64,000 nucleotides of DNA from assembly GCF_001428525.1 (NCBI RefSeq), contig NZ_LMHW01000014.1:186001-250000 (forward strand). The letters are read 5' to 3'. Below are positions 9,272 to 30,507 of the stretch, piece by piece. Position 1 is the stretch's first letter. Each line of letters opens with the position of its first letter. Source of the DNA: Flavobacterium sp. Root186 (lineage in GTDB: Bacteria > Bacteroidota > Bacteroidia > Flavobacteriales > Flavobacteriaceae). A model generated the notes under the pieces. It was given only the letters and a program-made list of their open reading frames with translations. It was not told the DNA's origin and did no database searches. Both the position numbers and the translations under genes were made by a program.

Positions 9272-9697
9272 ATGAGAATACTATCTTTATTGCTTTTAAC
9301 CCTTTTTATTGCAACCGGCTGCTGCAGTCAAAAAAAGACAAACATGGCTACAACTCAAATTGAATATTCTGCCCTTTCAAGAGGATATTATAAAAAGATT
9401 GTAGTTCAAAATCAGACTGTTTATGTTACAAACGGCAGAGATCAACAGCCGATTGAAACTAAAATTGACGATGCGAAATGGAACAAAATTGTTGCTGAAT
9501 TTTCAAAAGTAGATTTAAACAAACTTTCGGCATTAAAAGCACCAACTGAAAAACGTTTTTATGACGGTGCTGCGATTGGAAATTTAAAAATAACTCAAGA
9601 TCAAAAAACATACGAAACAGCAGGTTTCGACAATGGTTTTCCTCCAAAGGAAATTGAAAAACTGGTAAATTTACTGGTTGATTTTGCTAAAGAATAA
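9272..9697 (+). CDS. Putative lipoprotein between sufS and sufE
   Basis: A 141-residue protein with a lipoprotein signal (MRILSLLLLTLFIATGC; the lipobox ATGC puts the lipidated cysteine at residue 17). The mature part has no motif I can name. It begins 11 bp after sufS and ends 2 bp before sufE, so it is surely co-transcribed. A membrane lipoprotein inside a cytoplasmic Fe-S operon is unexpected, but similar small lipoproteins do occur next to suf genes in flavobacteria as far as I recall. Function unknown. Confidence 0.65.
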   Translation: MRILSLLLLTLFIATGCCSQKKTNMATTQIEYSALSRGYYKKIVVQNQTVYVTNGRDQQPIETKIDDAKWNKIVAEFSKVDLNKLSALKAPTEKRFYDGAAIGNLKITQDQKTYETAGFDNGFPPKEIEKLVNLLVDFAKE

Positions 9698-9699
9698 TT

Positions 9700-10125
9700 A
9701 TGACAATTAAAGAAATACAAAACGAAATAATAGACGAATTTTCGATGTTCGACGACTGGATGCAGCGTTATGAATATATCATCGAACTGGGAAAAAGTCT
9801 TCCTTTAATTAAAGAAGAATACAAAACCGATGAGAATTTAATTAAAGGCTGCCAGTCAAAAGTCTGGTTACAAGGTGAACAAAACGACGATAAAATTGTT
9901 TTCACAGCAGACAGCGATGCTATTTTAACTAAAGGGATAATCGCAATTTTAATTCGTGCTTTCTCTAATCAAAAAGCAGAAGACATTATAAGTGCTGACA
10001 CTGAATTTATAGACGAAATTGGTTTAAAAGAACATTTATCAGCAACACGTGCAAACGGATTGGTTTCGATGATAAAAAACATCAAAATGTACGCTTTGGC
10101 TTTTGATGCAAAAAACAAAAATTAA
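9700..10125 (+). CDS. sufE: Sulfur acceptor protein SufE
   Basis: A 141-residue SufE that accepts persulfide from SufS and stimulates its activity. The acceptor cysteine lies in LIKGCQSKVWL (residue about 51), and DDWMQRYEYIIELGK at the N-terminus and the RANGLVSMIKNIK tail are characteristic. It follows the lipoprotein gene with a 2-bp gap. A large inverted repeat begins right after the stop. Confidence 0.95.
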   Translation: MTIKEIQNEIIDEFSMFDDWMQRYEYIIELGKSLPLIKEEYKTDENLIKGCQSKVWLQGEQNDDKIVFTADSDAILTKGIIAILIRAFSNQKAEDIISADTEFIDEIGLKEHLSATRANGLVSMIKNIKMYALAFDAKNKN

Positions 10126-10127
10126 AT

Positions 10128-10224
10128 TTTTTCCACCATATAAGTTATATAAGAAAATTTAAGTTTTGTGCTTAAATTATTCGCAATCCATTTGAACCTT
10201 ATACAACTTATATGGTGAAAAAAC
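10128..10224. repeat. Palindromic element, ATATAAGTTATATAAG family
   Basis: TTTTTTCCACCATATAAG and its continuation (10128-10154) pair with CTTATACAACTTATATGG and its continuation (10199-10224), giving a roughly 26-bp imperfect stem around a 44-nt spacer. Single copies of the right arm recur at 10728-10765 and 50659-50690, each just upstream of a start codon. The A- and T-rich ends would let it act as a terminator for sufE. Confidence 0.6.
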
Positions 10225-24166: not shown

Positions 24167-24240
24167 TCCTCCTTAGCTCAGTTGGTTAGAGCATCTGACT
24201 GTTAATCAGAGGGTCCTTGGTTCGAGCCCAAGAGGGGGAG
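24167..24240 (+). tRNA. tRNA-Asn (GTT), copy 1
   Basis: 74 nt with acceptor TCCTCCT pairing AGGGGGA (one G-U), discriminator G, D-loop AGCTCAGTTGGTTAGAGC, anticodon GTT at 24201-24203 and T-arm with GGTTCGAGCC. CCA is not encoded. Identical to copy 2. Confidence 0.95.
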
Positions 24241-24278
24241 CAACTTTTTTTAGCAAACATATTTACCTTTAAGGTGAT

Positions 24279-24352
24279 TCCTCCTTAGCTCAGTTGGTTA
24301 GAGCATCTGACTGTTAATCAGAGGGTCCTTGGTTCGAGCCCAAGAGGGGGAG
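24279..24352 (+). tRNA. tRNA-Asn (GTT), copy 2
   Basis: The same 74 nt as copy 1, anticodon at 24313-24315, 38 nt downstream and followed at once by an intrinsic terminator, so both are made from one transcript. Confidence 0.95.
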
Positions 24353-24354
24353 CT

Positions 24355-24586: not shown

Positions 24587-25261
24587 TTATTGGTTCCCGT
24601 TTTTGCTTTCAAATAATTTCATCATTTCTTCTCCCTTTTCTTTTTCGTTTGCTGCTTTTAAACATTGTGCATATCTAAAATAATAAATGGTGTCTAAATT
24701 TCCATCGAGAGTAAATAACTCTGTGTAATATTTAACGGCGTCTTCAAAATTACTTTCAAAATAGAACTTGTCAGCCACTTTTTTAAGCATGTCTATAGAT
24801 TCGTACCCTTTGTCTAAAACATTAGCGTAGGTGTTGAGAATATCTATTTTTACAAACTTCTCTGAGTAGGCCGGAGCAGTAACCTCAACTTCGACTGGTT
24901 TAATGGTTTCTGCTGCTGCATCGGCCATTGCTTTTGAAGGTAAAATTGTGCTTGCTGTTCTTACTTTTGGTTTTTTATAGATTGGAGTTACCGTTCTCGT
25001 ATTATTTGGACCGAGATCATTTGTATACACCATATCCAGCTTGGAAACTTCATATTTGGTGGTTCTTTTTCCGAAAGGCATATTGATTACTTCTACAACC
25101 AAATACGATTCTATAACACGATCATCTGTTGGTTTGCTGTCAAATTTATAAGGCGCTCTTCGAGTGTCTGCATTTGCTACCATATAATTGGTTTGCTGAG
25201 CAAAACCACTTATAGAAAACAAACCGGCAAGAGCCGCAAAATGTAGTAAATATGTTTTCAT
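24587..25261 (-). CDS. Exported protein with C-terminal TPR-like helices
   Basis: A 224-residue exported protein. The signal peptide is MKTYLLHFAALAGLFSISGFAQ. The middle is beta-rich and polar (VIESYLVVEVINMPFGKRTTKYEVSKL). The last 75 residues form helix pairs of the TPR kind (MLKKVADKFYFESNFEDAVKYYTELF then TIYYFRYAQCLKAANEKEKGEEMM), like the repeats that precede OmpA domains in Bacteroidota envelope proteins. No OmpA domain follows, so it may be a shortened relative or an independent small family. Function unknown. Confidence 0.55.
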   Translation of the reverse strand: MKTYLLHFAALAGLFSISGFAQQTNYMVANADTRRAPYKFDSKPTDDRVIESYLVVEVINMPFGKRTTKYEVSKLDMVYTNDLGPNNTRTVTPIYKKPKVRTASTILPSKAMADAAAETIKPVEVEVTAPAYSEKFVKIDILNTYANVLDKGYESIDMLKKVADKFYFESNFEDAVKYYTELFTLDGNLDTIYYFRYAQCLKAANEKEKGEEMMKLFESKNGNQ

Positions 25262-25389: not shown

Positions 25390-25545
25390 CTGAAAATAGT
25401 TTATAACAATAATATTGTTATAAATGGAAATGCATACAACTGTAATTTTAATTCTCTTGATAAAGTTGTGGAACTTTATGGGTGTTTGGTTCAGGCTGAA
25501 AAAGATAAGGTTGAGTATTTAGAGAAATTGTTGAAAGGGAAGTAA
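25390..25545 (+). pseudogene. C-terminal remnant of an XRE-type regulator
   Basis: An open frame without a good start, ending in VELYGCLVQAEKDKVEYLEKLLKGK, preceded by asparagine-rich codons (NGNAYNCNFNSLDK). This pattern, an Asn-rich linker then a short coiled coil with LVQAEKDKV, is the usual tail of flavobacterial XRE helix-turn-helix regulators. The DNA-binding domain is missing. A stop at 25387-25389 closes the frame upstream. Confidence 0.5.
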
Positions 25546-25577
25546 AATTTCTTTTGAAAAATATATTATTTTATAAT

Positions 25578-25612
25578 AAAAAGAGGCTCTTGTGGAAAGA
25601 GCCTCTTTTTTG
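25578..25612 (+). terminator. Intrinsic terminator after the regulator remnant
   Basis: AGAGGCTCTT and AAGAGCCTCT, 10-bp arms around a 4-base loop, followed by TTTTTTG. It still marks the end of the old regulator gene. Confidence 0.75.
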
Positions 25613-25857
25613 TTTATTAAGATGCTAATTATTACAAACAACAATAAAAACTTAACATACCTTATTTCACAAACTATATATAATCGCCCAAACTGTCAAT
25701 TACTCAAACGCCCGCTTTTTAACAAAAAAAATAATTTAATTATAAAAAATTAACTTCTTTACGGGAATCCGTAAAAAAAACACCTTTTTTTATCATATAT
25801 TTCCTTCGACAAAATTAGATATGAAAATTATTCTATAACATTTTAAGATTTTACAAT

Positions 25858-28800
25858 ATGGTGCATATTAAGGATTTGACTTTAGACAATCAAAAAGTAA
25901 CTGATCTATTTGAAGAAATACGAAATGGCAATACAATACTTTTCCTTGGTGCTGGGGCCTCTGTAACTGATGAGAAAATATATTTAAGCTCTCAATTAAT
26001 AAAATATTATAGAGATATTCAGAACATATCATACGATACTAATGATATTGTTGATTTTGTTGATAAGATATTTTCTTCTCCAAAATATCAAAGATCCGAT
26101 TTTGATTCAAAAGTTTCAACTTTTCTAAGAAAATTAAATGTTCAAGATTATCACAAAATACTCACCGATATACCTTGGAATTCTGTCCTTACCACAAATG
26201 TCGATTTATTAATTGAAAATGCTTTTGAAAAAGAAGGCAAATTGGAAACATTAAATGTTATTAGAAATAAACAGGAGCTATTAACTCCCAAATTAAGCAA
26301 TGATTTAAAATACATCAAATTACATGGCTGCATTTCAGATTTAGGTAAATATCCTATTGCATTTTCTAGTAGAGATTTTGAAGAATGCAAAAAATATCAT
26401 AAACATATCTTTAAAACTATAATTCAAGCTTCTTATAGGGTTAAAATAATATTTATTGGATACTCTTTTAAAGATGAGTTTGGAAAAAGGTTTTTAGATT
26501 ATGCAACGCAAGAATTAGGAAATAGAGAAATATTTTTAATTGATCCATTCTTAACTGATGAATTTGATGTGAATTTTTATTGGAGTAAGAACATTAATGT
26601 TGTTAACGCATTCACAAAAAATTTCTTTGAACTTTATTCTTCTTGGTTTTTAACTAATAATAAACTGATTGTAGATAGAAAACACAATATTTTTAATCTA
26701 CATGATTCTTTTAAAATTAATTCATATTTGCAACATCAACTTTCTCCATTTTTACTGCCATTAAATGAAAGCTATTTTCAAAAGGAAATTTCGTCTAAAG
26801 AATATTATTTAGGAATTGAACCTGATTATGGCATAGTCAATAAAAATTATGATATAATTAAAGAAAAAAAGTTAAAAGATACCATTGAGTTTATCGAACA
26901 AAAATTCGAAAGTCAGGGAGATTTATATCCTCTCATTTTTTTAAAAGGAAGCTATGGAACAGGAAAAACTACTTTTACATATAGAGTTATAAAAGAATTA
27001 ACTGGAAATGATTCAAACATACTTGCTTTCCATTTAACTGATTTAAAAAAATATTCGGAAGCATTTATTAATCAATTAATTATTAGCTTAACTGGTCTTA
27101 AAAAATTAATTTTTTTTTCTGATCATTCTGAAATAGATTCAAACTTTAAGGCTATAAGGAATATCAGAGGAAGTTTAAGTTCTAATCAATATCCTGATAA
27201 AAAAATAATCTTTCTACAAGCCATAAGAGAAAATACACTTGAAAAATTTAAAAAATTCCATAATCCAGATCTTATTGAGTACAATATCGATAATGAATTA
27301 AATCGTGAAGAACTATCTAAACTTGTTGACAAATATTATAACGATGGTCTTATAAAATATAAGGACGCTAAAGAAAAAAATGAAATTCTTTTGCAAATTA
27401 AGTCCTTATTTGGCTCTAATGACCAATATCTCTTTTTATTAAAATTCATTGATAATGGCAATCACAAAAAATCATTATTAAAAACTTATAATGATTTATC
27501 AGAGGACATGCAAAAAGCCTTTCTATATACCTCTTTATCATATAGATACGGAATTCCTATGCCATCAGGATTACTTCAAAAAATGTTGTCTTTAGATTGG
27601 AACAATTTTATTACTGATGTTGTAAAAACTGAAGGATTTGGAATATTGATACAAGAAAAATTAAAACCTGATCATTATTTACTACCTGATTTATATTTTA
27701 AAATCAAACATCCGATAATTGCTGATATATTATTAAATGAAAAAACAAAAGACTCTAAACAATTATTCTTATTATACAGAAAATTAATTAACAGTCTTGA
27801 AACTAATGAAATATCATGTTATGTAGCAAATAATTTATTGAGATCATTAGGCTTAGAAAAAACATTTGACAAGTCTAATATAAATTTATTATACGATGAA
27901 GCTTATAAAATTCTTTCTGATTTCTCACATTTTTGCTTGAGCTATTCTGTTAATCTTCAACACAGAAATACAGAGAAAGAATTATTATTTGCATTAAAAA
28001 TAGTAAATGATTTAGATGAATATAAAGATAATTCATTTTCAAGAAATTCAAGAATAGTTCATAGAAAAGCTGTATTAAATAGAGAACTTTCTAAATATTA
28101 CCATAAAGATTCTGAAGTTGAAAAATCAAAAGATTATTTCGATGAAGCACTTGATTTATTTGAAGTTAAATTATCGCTTGATCCAACTACAATTCATAGT
28201 TATAAAGATTTAATTGGGATGTTAATTAGTACCTTGAAAAATTGGGAAGACAAACTGTCTGATACTGAAAAAGTTAAAATAGAAATAAGAATAAAAGAAC
28301 TTTTTACAAAGGCTAAAACTAATCTTCAAGAAGGTTTAAATAACATTTCTAGATTAGAAACACAATTTGTCAAATTGATTGGGGACGTATCAGTAATTAA
28401 AGAGCGTATGGACAATCTTATGGAGAATGTAGATACAAAACCATACGCTTTGCTTTTGAAATATGAATTGTTCAAAATAAAACCTATTCTTTTAATTCCT
28501 ATGCCGGAAGAAAGCGAAATTATTGATGAATTATCTAATTACGATTATTGCTTTGAAGTAGCAAAATTTTTATTCTCCTATTATGGTGAAAGATTAAACA
28601 TCTATAACTATCGAATTAAATTTTTTAAATTAGTTAAAGACAATAAATCTTTAATTGATTACGAAAAACTAGATTATTACTTCTACACTTTCATTGCAAA
28701 TGCCCTAAGTCATATGATGCAAGATGCTTGGGATTCTATTAATTCAATAAGAAAAGAATTTCCATATTCTGTTTACAAAAAACAATATTATTGGTTAGAA

Positions 28801-29004
28801 CAGGATTCAAATTTGACTAGAGAATTTACTGGAAAGATAGTGAAGAATGGAAATGATTATTTAATGCTAAAGATTAATGAAATGGGTGGTAATTTAAAAA
28901 CAAAAATTAATATGAAAAAGTATCAAAATCTTGAATTCACTAAAACATATAAAGCAAATCTATATTTTACATTCACAGGTATCTGGGCAGAAATTCTTGA
29001 GTAA
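25858..29004 (+). CDS. SIR2/P-loop STAND-like protein, probable antiphage defence sensor
   Basis: A 1048-residue soluble protein. The N-terminal third is an SIR2-like NAD-binding domain: LFLGAGAS (residues 28-35), TTNVD (112-116) and the catalytic-type H156 in KLHGCIS; IIFIGYSFKDEF is also typical. A P-loop NTPase follows with Walker A GSYGTGKTT (364-372), a candidate Walker B LIFFSD and a sensor-like KKIIFLQAIREN. The remaining 500 or so residues are helical without motifs I can name, as in STAND sensor arms. This layout fits SIR2-STAND (Avs5-like) proteins, which deplete NAD on detecting phage. It is a single-gene insertion, more AT-rich than its neighbours. Family assignment is probable; the exact subclass is not certain. 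Confidence 0.8.
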   Translation: MVHIKDLTLDNQKVTDLFEEIRNGNTILFLGAGASVTDEKIYLSSQLIKYYRDIQNISYDTNDIVDFVDKIFSSPKYQRSDFDSKVSTFLRKLNVQDYHKILTDIPWNSVLTTNVDLLIENAFEKEGKLETLNVIRNKQELLTPKLSNDLKYIKLHGCISDLGKYPIAFSSRDFEECKKYHKHIFKTIIQASYRVKIIFIGYSFKDEFGKRFLDYATQELGNREIFLIDPFLTDEFDVNFYWSKNINVVNAFTKNFFELYSSWFLTNNKLIVDRKHNIFNLHDSFKINSYLQHQLSPFLLPLNESYFQKEISSKEYYLGIEPDYGIVNKNYDIIKEKKLKDTIEFIEQKFESQGDLYPLIFLKGSYGTGKTTFTYRVIKELTGNDSNILAFHLTDLKKYSEAFINQLIISLTGLKKLIFFSDHSEIDSNFKAIRNIRGSLSSNQYPDKKIIFLQAIRENTLEKFKKFHNPDLIEYNIDNELNREELSKLVDKYYNDGLIKYKDAKEKNEILLQIKSLFGSNDQYLFLLKFIDNGNHKKSLLKTYNDLSEDMQKAFLYTSLSYRYGIPMPSGLLQKMLSLDWNNFITDVVKTEGFGILIQEKLKPDHYLLPDLYFKIKHPIIADILLNEKTKDSKQLFLLYRKLINSLETNEISCYVANNLLRSLGLEKTFDKSNINLLYDEAYKILSDFSHFCLSYSVNLQHRNTEKELLFALKIVNDLDEYKDNSFSRNSRIVHRKAVLNRELSKYYHKDSEVEKSKDYFDEALDLFEVKLSLDPTTIHSYKDLIGMLISTLKNWEDKLSDTEKVKIEIRIKELFTKAKTNLQEGLNNISRLETQFVKLIGDVSVIKERMDNLMENVDTKPYALLLKYELFKIKPILLIPMPEESEIIDELSNYDYCFEVAKFLFSYYGERLNIYNYRIKFFKLVKDNKSLIDYEKLDYYFYTFIANALSHMMQDAWDSINSIRKEFPYSVYKKQYYWLEQDSNLTREFTGKIVKNGNDYLMLKINEMGGNLKTKINMKKYQNLEFTKTYKANLYFTFTGIWAEILE

Positions 29005-29050
29005 TTTTATTTTAATAAGTCATAAATCTACATTCATATAACTAAACAAA

Positions 29051-29084
29051 AAAAGCGCTGCAATCCAAAGATCACAGCGCTTTT
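29051..29084. terminator. Bidirectional terminator between SIR2 and C1 peptidase genes
   Basis: AAAAGCGCTG (29051-29060) and CAGCGCTTTT (29075-29084) form a 10-bp stem, with A-run and T-run on the outer sides, between two convergent genes. Confidence 0.8.
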
Positions 29085-29111: not shown

Positions 29112-30308
29112 TTAAACCCCTAATTTCTTAGCAATTTCAGCAGGAATTCCTCCTTTGTTTACCATTAAGGCAGTTGTTTTATATTTTACGAAATTTTTGG
29201 TTACGAATAAGAAACCTTTGTAGTCGTTTGTTTCTCCCCAAGAATTTTTTACGATATAATATTCTTTTCCGGTTTGATCTTTTGCAAGACCAATAATGTG
29301 CATTCCGTGGTCGTCTGTTGTACCATAGTTGTCAAACGCAGCCTGACGCATTTCTGGAGTAATTTCCGGTTCTGCTTTTGGTCCGTTAAACATATCTGCT
29401 TTTTCTTCGGCAGTCATGTCGTCAAATTTCTTTGTTGGAACATACGCTACACCGTTTTTCCAGCTAAAGCTTTTCTCGCTTACGTCTGTCGCCCAAGCTA
29501 CAGTATATCCTTTTTTCAATGCATTGTCGATAACATCTGTCATGTCGTTTACTTTTACGTTGTAAACCTGATCTAAAGACCAGTTGTCCGGCACGGCAAG
29601 AACTGTTTTTTGGTAATATGGAGCCGTTGTAAACGAAGACATTTCTACATATTCATCAGGATTAATTCCTACCACTTCTTTAGCAAAAGACTGAGGCGTA
29701 TAGTTTTTTCCTTTGTAATTGAAGTTATCCGGCACTTTTCCTAAATAAGAATCGATAACAGCAGCATACGCTTTTTGCCAGTTTGGCGTTAATTCTCCGT
29801 TTGGATTTTTAACCACTGCAGCCAAAACACCTTCGATAAGCGCAGACATTTCGGCAAATTTATTTTTATCCGTTCCGTAGTTCAAACCTGTGTAAACTTC
29901 TCTTGGTACGGTTCCGTATTTTTTGTACATATTAATTACGTCGTGCAGCGAACCTCCATCGCCCAAAGTGATCGCACCGTGCATACGAACATAATTTACT
30001 CCTTTGTCAACATACACATTTCTTGCAGAAAAAACCTGAGAAAGCTCAACAGGCTGTTTTCCTAAACGAATCATTTCTGACTCTAAAAATGAGTTTGATG
30101 CATAACTCCAGCAAGTTCCTGATGAACCCTGGTTTTTAATCGACGTTGTTCCTAAGTTAACGACCTCAGTGAATTTAAAAGCTTCTTTACTTTTATCACT
30201 CGCATTTAGCTTTAAGGAATTTACCAAAATGTCCTGTGCAAAACAGCCGCTTACACCAACTAAAAAAGCAGATGCCGCGAAAACTGATTTCATCGTATTT
30301 TTATACAT
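29112..30308 (-). CDS. C1-family cysteine peptidase, bleomycin hydrolase-like
   Basis: A 398-residue exported papain-fold peptidase of the C1B (bleomycin hydrolase/aminopeptidase C) branch. The catalytic cysteine is in GSSGTCWSYASNSF, the histidine in TDDHGMHIIGLAKD and the asparagine in IVKNSWGETNDYKG. The leader has a lipobox-like VSGC, so it may be a lipoprotein of the periplasm or cell surface. ATG 30308 is preferred over the TTG two codons upstream; an ATG at 30293 is a further option. It stands alone, convergent with the SIR2 gene. Confidence 0.85.
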   Translation of the reverse strand: MYKNTMKSVFAASAFLVGVSGCFAQDILVNSLKLNASDKSKEAFKFTEVVNLGTTSIKNQGSSGTCWSYASNSFLESEMIRLGKQPVELSQVFSARNVYVDKGVNYVRMHGAITLGDGGSLHDVINMYKKYGTVPREVYTGLNYGTDKNKFAEMSALIEGVLAAVVKNPNGELTPNWQKAYAAVIDSYLGKVPDNFNYKGKNYTPQSFAKEVVGINPDEYVEMSSFTTAPYYQKTVLAVPDNWSLDQVYNVKVNDMTDVIDNALKKGYTVAWATDVSEKSFSWKNGVAYVPTKKFDDMTAEEKADMFNGPKAEPEITPEMRQAAFDNYGTTDDHGMHIIGLAKDQTGKEYYIVKNSWGETNDYKGFLFVTKNFVKYKTTALMVNKGGIPAEIAKKLGV

Positions 30309-30507
30309 AATCAAAAGATTTAAATAGTTGCCTTATTAGTAGCTTGTATTATATTTTTGTTACAAAACAATTAAATATTCGGTAAATAAACTATTATTTA
30401 ACAGTTAATGTTTATACAATGTTTTTATTAAACAATTAAATCTTACAAATTATATAAAAACATAATCTGTTTAGAATCAAATCTTTTTCGGTTTTATATT
30501 TAAATAA

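Follow-up and report, generated by a model that had tools for sequence, protein, structure and literature searches.

The closest described counterparts of the gene treated here are the Avs5 antiphage proteins and human SAMD9. The gene itself is a single open reading frame (ORF) for a 1048-residue protein, lying in 64,000 nucleotides of Flavobacterium sp. Root186 (contig NZ_LMHW01000014.1, positions 186,001 to 250,000), a stretch referred to below as the window. According to PMC12931631, Avs5 comprises four clades, and protection requires the SIR2 residues, the Walker A motif, and the C-terminal arm. The same paper reports that Avs5 responds to a phage protein, that its HG motif can vary to NG, that PaAvs5 has an nSTAND3 (PF20720) NTPase, and that Avs5 resembles SAMD9 in structure. 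Filament assembly is reported for Avs5 in PMC12700824. The SAMD9 core, in PMC5445408, runs AlbA_2-SIR2-P-loop-TPR-OB, has bacterial homologues, and carries a lysine-less P-loop (GGT/S); some family members are without AlbA_2, and RNA binding has been predicted for the OB domain.

How does the Flavobacterium protein compare? It is an Avs5-related SIR2-STAND receptor with the domain order of the SAMD9 core and a retuned cap that resembles a cold-shock domain (CSD). A sequence-only reading of the window had proposed a lone, Avs-type, NAD-depleting antiphage sensor with intact GAGAS, TTNVD, and H156, a P-loop GSYGTGKTT, and a long motif-free helical arm. The residues are all where that reading placed them (Table 1), and the layout it named agrees with the matches described below. 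The arm is indeed helical, yet it is not motif-free: it ends in a recognizable domain, and from end to end the protein follows the SAMD9 core in its domain order.

Domains, family, and relation to Avs5 and SAMD9

A scan of genome contigs confirmed 171 relatives, of which 80 were kept. Full-length ORFs of 1023 to 1071 amino acids (aa) make up 64 of these; the other 16 loci, which fall short of 1000 aa or run into a contig end, were excluded from the alignment (A4). A tree of the first 760 residues has 74 rows: the window protein, the 64 full-length relatives, six from whole genomes or plasmids, and a short group of three SIR2-STAND proteins of 810 to 817 aa (L076, L084, and L086). The window protein falls in a clade of 18 rows (support 100 by a quick method), whose members are 30 to 41% identical to it. 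They are mostly Bacteroidota, with two Ignavibacteriota, metagenome-assembled genomes (MAGs) of one Acidobacteriota and one unassigned lineage, and a Hymenobacter plasmid. The remaining, "broad" rows come from Pseudomonadota, Bacteroidota, other phyla, and two archaeal MAGs, and share 14 to 20% identity with the window protein; the archaeal pair is the branch nearest to the window clade (support 90). The members from genome G444, of the same genus as the window, and from Flavobacterium yafengii (L034) are separated in the tree by a branch of zero length.

The family is rare yet widely spread. With the own genome counted each time, matches at E<=1e-10 occur in 3 of 100 relatives (one being a 480-aa protein with SIR2 only), only 5 of the 395 genomes searched in the order have the family at 1e-15, a patchy spread, and the window-clade profile at 1e-60 finds 2 of 395 genomes of the phylum. 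As first read, this is a single gene; it is no isolated oddity. Among the papers listed by a literature search, judged by titles and abstract starts and with subscription journals mostly outside it, none reports that NAD hydrolysis or protection was assayed for the family, and none describes a SIR2-STAND-CSD family other than the bacterial SAMD9 homologues of PMC5445408.

Conservation, taken over the window protein and its 64 full-length relatives (65 rows), is far above chance: G31, G33, T113, N114, D116, G157, G201, D206, G369, and K370 are invariant in 65/65. Position 156 is H in 49 rows and N in 12; the other 4 rows have neither. The change from HG to NG, shared with Avs5, is concentrated in the window clade (12/15), in which the window protein itself has H. 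Decay of the gene was rejected, the ORF having no internal stop and retaining its active-site residues.

The SIR2 domain matches antiphage NADases. ThsA is both a sequence match (E 1.9e-10) and a close overlay on the predicted structure (Z 22.2, 3.1 A, 259 residues in VIA), and KomC, DSR2, and SPARSA are further fold matches. PADLOC gives the ThsA SIR2 domain at 3e-18, an Ago-associated SIR2 at 1e-4, and PDC-S65 at 0.06; no Avs5 or DSR model matches at E<=1, and PADLOC possibly holds no Avs5 model at all. A housekeeping sirtuin, the outcome that was to have spoken against a defence role, is ruled out by these antiphage matches and by the rarity of the family.

As in Avs5, an N-terminal SIR2_2 domain with GAGxS and TTNxD precedes a central Walker A NTPase and C-terminal helical repeats. 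The profile of all 65 sequences matches EfAvs5 (9jap) with E 4.8e-27. Homology extends beyond SIR2: the NTPase part alone (alignment A6, 56 sequences after exclusion of nine near-duplicates) reaches EfAvs5 at 1.2e-13. An AlphaFold2 model built with the 65 sequences (mean pLDDT 84) shows SIR2, NTPase, helical arm, and a five-stranded end domain. With the whole model as query, Foldseek, in a comparison that the sequence-only reading had called for, ranks EfAvs5 first (1.3e-21), followed by human SAMD9 (1.4e-18, and 3.3e-18 with TM 0.43/0.42 for 9zjv), the AVAST5 filament, and then DSR2. VIA lays EfAvs5 on model residues 6-846 (743 residues, Z 19.2, rmsd 22 A) and residues 390-1327 of SAMD9 9zjs on 10-871 (662 residues, Z 15.0, rmsd 28 A); tight overlays of about 3 A are confined to SIR2.

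Might the protein simply be a true Avs5, its extra residues only lengthening the repeat arm and its CSD purely structural? The long EfAvs5 alignment speaks for this, though at an rmsd of 22 A, and so does the low identity of the tested Avs5 proteins, just 18 to 21% among themselves (PMC12931631). Against it, Pfam gives the window protein nSTAND5 (below cut-off) rather than nSTAND3, which has no match there at E<=1 and appears below threshold in two relatives (L004, 4.6e-4; L007, 0.0039). Avs5 is also about 180 to 220 residues shorter, since PaAvs5-1 is described up to residue 828 in PMC12931631 and the EfAvs5 entry has 869 residues. The passages on Avs5 examined mention no CSD; the CSD-like end of this family is retained across bacteria and two archaeal MAGs. 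We regard membership in Avs5 proper as very unlikely; the label "Avs-type" holds for relatedness only.

The SAMD9/SAMD9L core (human cryo-EM 9zjs and 9zjv) shares with the family the order SIR2, P-loop STAND, TPR-like helices, and C-terminal cold-shock-like OB domain, with TPR found by Pfam in relatives only (3 of 6 scanned). It differs in three ways. (i) The family is without an AlbA_2/tRNase domain and without a SAM domain: in the window protein, which has no AlbA_2 match at E<=1, SIR2 begins near residue 11. (ii) The SAMD9 P-loop is GGT/S, whereas the Walker A lysine is kept in every row here. (iii) The SIR2 residues are intact in the family. Sequence profiles list no SAMD9 among the 60 of 515 matches shown for the 65 sequences or the 60 of 700 for the NTPase, which does not by itself exclude such a match. 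With nSTAND3, AlbA_2, and the GGT/S P-loop all missing from the window protein, the family is assigned to neither Avs5 nor SAMD9. The present analysis adds a prokaryotic family that joins the SIR2-to-OB order with intact SIR2 and Walker A residues.

Two other systems share parts of the layout. DSR2 likewise has a SIR2 effector and, at its C-terminal side, a long arm of helices, but its 3-4 A overlays on the model are limited to SIR2 and longer ones have an rmsd of 10-20 A; to our knowledge it has no comparable P-loop NTPase. ThsA (Thoeris) shares the SIR2 domain and is the best PADLOC match, which spans residues 14-206 only; the NTPase comes next, and no SLOG-like second domain was found.

The C-terminal cold-shock-like domain

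The end domain has the five-stranded OB fold of a CSD, and in the models this fold is well supported. Folded alone, the window domain reaches a pLDDT of 87, and VIA-align places the RNA-bound CSD of YBX1 at the top (64 residues, Z 9.4, 1.7 A). Behind it come further OB folds at Z 7-8, scores that, the tool warns, are also typical of the best hit when a model matches nothing clearly. Foldseek with the isolated domain is weak (best E 0.017), its top hit being a CSD. Kinship with CSDs is suggested mainly by the family profile, since the profile of family C-termini finds the Unr CSD (1.3e-10) and CspA (7e-8) in the PDB. Pfam CSD matches 31 of the 64 family C-termini of 99 aa, at best with 3.6e-10. 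One relative, L016, whose end is without the last strand, was excluded from the alignment of these ends (A5).

A rival reading keeps the effector and outcome and changes the trigger: single-stranded nucleic acid (phage RNA, single-stranded DNA, or cleaved tRNA) bound by the C-terminal domain. The occurrence of the CSD throughout the family fits this idea, as does the RNA binding predicted for the SAMD9 OB domain in PMC5445408. In the broad clade the two positions that align with the aromatic residues of RNP1 and RNP2 are aromatic in 45/50 and 49/50 rows; L034 (Flavobacterium yafengii) is one broad-clade member whose aromatics are intact. In the window clade, by contrast, the counts are 0/15 and 4/15, and the window protein has M1003 and K1016. 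This loss is qualified by a third, adjacent position (1001), aromatic in 11/15 window-clade rows and Y in the window protein. From these residues, the window clade probably does without the standard nucleic-acid reading of a CSD. Because the stacking aromatics have been lost there, we think a protein ligand likelier than nucleic acid in this clade, and a nucleic-acid trigger for the window protein seems unlikely.

The chromosomal slot and the XRE family

The gene, one copy in the 5.53-Mb genome, occupies an insert of 3.4 kb (25613-29044) with a GC content of 25.1% versus 33.3% for the window, in keeping with the AT-rich horizontal insert first proposed. Upstream is the tail of a decayed XRE regulator, also anticipated: G468 has an intact XRE gene of 130 aa whose codons 82-130 align to 25399-25542 (69% over 49 positions, E 3.8e-17, tblastn), and the frame of the remnant stays open up to its own stop. 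The earlier start of 25390 took in this remnant; a gap of 312 bases separates its stop from the gene start at 25858. The terminators invoked as bounds are present as hairpins, the second directly following the gene end and separating it from a convergent peptidase gene.

Does this arrangement recur? Of 81 genomes of the genus, 54 contain a match at E<=1e-60 to the peptidase on the right (the own genome and more distant homologues counted). Besides the own genome, 16 have it at 90% identity or more, and 14 of these were fetched. Seven have an intact XRE gene of 127-132 aa followed by cargo. Five are empty sites, in which the matches to the lipoprotein-like gene and the peptidase lie 199-339 bases apart and no ORF of at least 120 aa intervenes. 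The last two lack XRE and have different left neighbours. A further 40 XRE loci (L169-L208), taken from the top of the XRE match list and chosen blind to cargo, added six genomes in which XRE and cargo stand beside the same peptidase (L170, L173, L176, L178, L182, and L201). L169, which carries Hachiman, has only the left neighbour in common with the slot. By a tblastn recount, 13 other genomes of the genus thus have an intact XRE and the same C1 peptidase around other cargo, and in 10 of them a relative of the lipoprotein-like protein lies left of XRE. The SIR2 gene of the window occupies the same slot, its XRE reduced to a tail. The literature search found no description of this slot.

Named antiphage systems are carried by 5 of the 13 occupied slots (Table 1). 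PADLOC found no match among the ORFs scanned in G100, G049, G004, and G830; its scan took in some of the ORFs of L125, L130, L135, L170, and L178 and none of L176 (G847). The named antiphage systems that sister genomes carry in this slot make a stronger case for defence than the sequence-only reading had. Could the protein instead guard against plasmids or other mobile elements, or respond to host damage? Some relatives are plasmid-borne, and two slots contain matches to the SocA/Panacea antitoxin, one of them weak and below cut-off. The antiphage systems in five slots and the response of the related Avs5 to a phage protein (PMC12931631) point the other way, and we consider such a role improbable.

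Table 1. Features of the window and cargo of the equivalent slot in other genomes
Feature	Position or genome	Strand	Evidence
SIR2-STAND-helical arm-CSD-like protein, 1048 aa	25858..29004	+	single ORF
SIR2 NADase-like domain (residues ~11-265; GAGAS 31-35, TTNVD 112-116, H156)	25888..26652	+	Pfam SIR2_2 1.6e-15; ThsA fold match
STAND P-loop NTPase region (residues ~315-600)	26800..27657	+	nSTAND_NTPase5 9e-6; family profile to EfAvs5
Walker A GSYGTGKTT (364-372)	26947..26973	+	K370 in 65/65
Helical arm (residues ~619-967)	27712..28758	+	helices in model
C-terminal OB-fold, cold-shock-like domain (residues ~985-1048)	28810..29001	+	five strands 989-1046; YBX1 CSD overlay; Pfam CSD in relatives
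XRE regulator remnant (last 48 codons + stop)	25399..25545	+	tblastn with intact L124 XRE; frame
Terminator-like hairpin after XRE remnant	25578..25610	+	-20.2 kcal/mol, z -5.3
Terminator-like hairpin between two convergent genes	29051..29084	both	+ strand -15.9 kcal/mol, z -6.2; - strand -24.4, z -6.4
Left slot neighbour: 224-aa secreted, lipoprotein-like protein (name read from sequence)	24587..25261	-	
Right slot neighbour: C1-type peptidase (name read from sequence)	29112..30314	-	
Slot cargo IetAS	G468		PADLOC
Slot cargo IetAS	G836		IetS 9.3e-51; IetA partner judged from ORF alone
Slot cargo dCTP deaminase	G008		PADLOC 'dCTPase' 4.9e-162; Pfam deaminase
Slot cargo Lamassu	G869		LmuB 2.9e-228
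Slot cargo Tmn	G818		7.2e-87
Slot cargo PADLOC 'Helicase' model match	G854		
Slot cargo SocA/Panacea antitoxin-like gene	G006		3.3e-17
Slot cargo SocA/Panacea match below cut-off	G464		

The XRE family is dispersed well beyond the slot. At E<=1e-20 it has 333 copies, spread over 49 of the 150 genomes searched in the genus (own counted), with up to 28 in one genome; L124:7456-7848 served as the intact reference. GajA, LmuB, HamB, and IetS were located in the 49 XRE genomes, and XRE was sought within 6.5 kb. It is that close to 9 of 24 defence loci (GajA 4/8, HamB 2/6, IetS 2/9, LmuB 1/1), against 0.66 expected from each genome's XRE density. Without the five loci that prompted the choice of families, 4 of 19 remain versus 0.49 expected (Poisson 0.0016). 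XRE copies are thus enriched near Gabija, Hachiman, Lamassu, and IetAS genes, an association that is an enrichment and no rule, because other copies adjoin ordinary genes. The 3' tail of XRE is not claimed as an attachment site, second tail copies occurring in 5 of 38 loci (L172, L202, L205, L206, and L208) and not consistently flanking the cargo; two of the 40 loci were set aside here, L181 (own genome, a copy with a stop) and L186 (cut by a contig end, with its XRE elsewhere in the locus).

Several further observations concern these sites. Two cargo proteins, of 765 aa (L126:1325-3619, minus strand) and 667 aa (L135:2119-4119, plus strand), have no Pfam or PADLOC match at E<=0.001 and are candidate undescribed defence genes. 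A 734-aa SIR2-like protein (L204:3719-5920, plus strand; Ago-associated SIR2 model, 2.1e-22) adjoins another XRE copy. A pair of tRNA-Asn genes lies left of the slot at 24167-24353, a stretch that 11 of the 14 fetched relatives also have to the left of the peptidase. In L131 a zeta-toxin-like gene (9544-10134, Pfam 6.5e-9) separates the tRNA-Asn pair from the lipoprotein-like gene, and in L133 an ORF outside the Pfam scan has, by its start, the same position; the downstream slot is empty in both, and there is perhaps a second variable spot beside the tRNAs. Elsewhere in the same genome as the window (G000, contig C13), L089:742-3408 lies in an open frame of 1301 aa for a second STAND protein, with nSTAND_NTPase5 at 36.9 bits, above cut-off. 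Over the 889 aa read, it has no Pfam SIR2 match, and the STAND model scores 32.4 bits.

Proposed function and significance

What do the domains, their conservation, the predicted fold, and the slot shared with known defence systems, all of them results of this analysis, say about function? Very probably this is a real, functional defence gene. That it acts as a one-gene NADase sensor of the abortive-infection type is a narrower proposal, and a somewhat favoured one. At rest, the C-terminal arm and CSD-like cap would keep the STAND NTPase closed. Binding of a phage-derived ligand by the arm would release the NTPase, and ATP-dependent assembly, into a filament in the case of Avs5, would gather the N-terminal SIR2 domains. 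Clustered in this way, they would hydrolyse NAD+, and the infected cell would be arrested ahead of phage release. NAD hydrolysis, assembly, and the abortive outcome are inferred from Avs5, ThsA, and DSR2.

Several results weigh against this account. A profile built from 7 sequences lists neither Avs5 nor SAMD9 among all its 59 PDB matches at E<=10, so that Avs5 is detected by the 65-sequence profile and missed by the smaller one. The window protein itself matches nSTAND_NTPase5 at 26 bits (9e-6), under the cut-off of 34, and Pfam finds neither TPR in it nor CSD at its own C-terminus. With a pTM of 0.54, the model does not establish the closed arrangement. In 8 of the 13 slots the cargo includes no named antiphage system (not every ORF was scanned), and a shared location is indirect. 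Finally, no relative was found among viral contigs or phage records. A phage origin of the gene was rejected for that same result, PHROGs giving only two weak clamp-loader matches (E 0.088 and 0.11).

Little is understood of the sensing half of SAMD9 and SAMD9L, proteins with antiviral and disease roles. With a compact bacterial SIR2-STAND-repeat-OB protein that has intact catalytic residues and no N-terminal nuclease, this sensing and switching logic would become testable by a simple phage assay. A more ambitious reading, which we offer tentatively and consider rather doubtful, is that prokaryotes have in this family a catalytically intact counterpart to the SAMD9 core: bacterial and archaeal SIR2-STAND-TPR-CSD immune receptors whose CSD would sense nucleic acid in most lineages and would be retuned to another ligand in the Bacteroidota-centred window clade. 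In Flavobacterium-like genomes they would be one interchangeable payload of dispersed, XRE-marked slots, each a collecting point for single defence systems. CSDs with and without a nucleic-acid face can also be compared within the family, which gives a view of the role of the OB cap in such receptors. For the genus, the XRE-marked slots are a simple handle on undescribed defence genes, some of their cargoes having no Pfam or PADLOC match.

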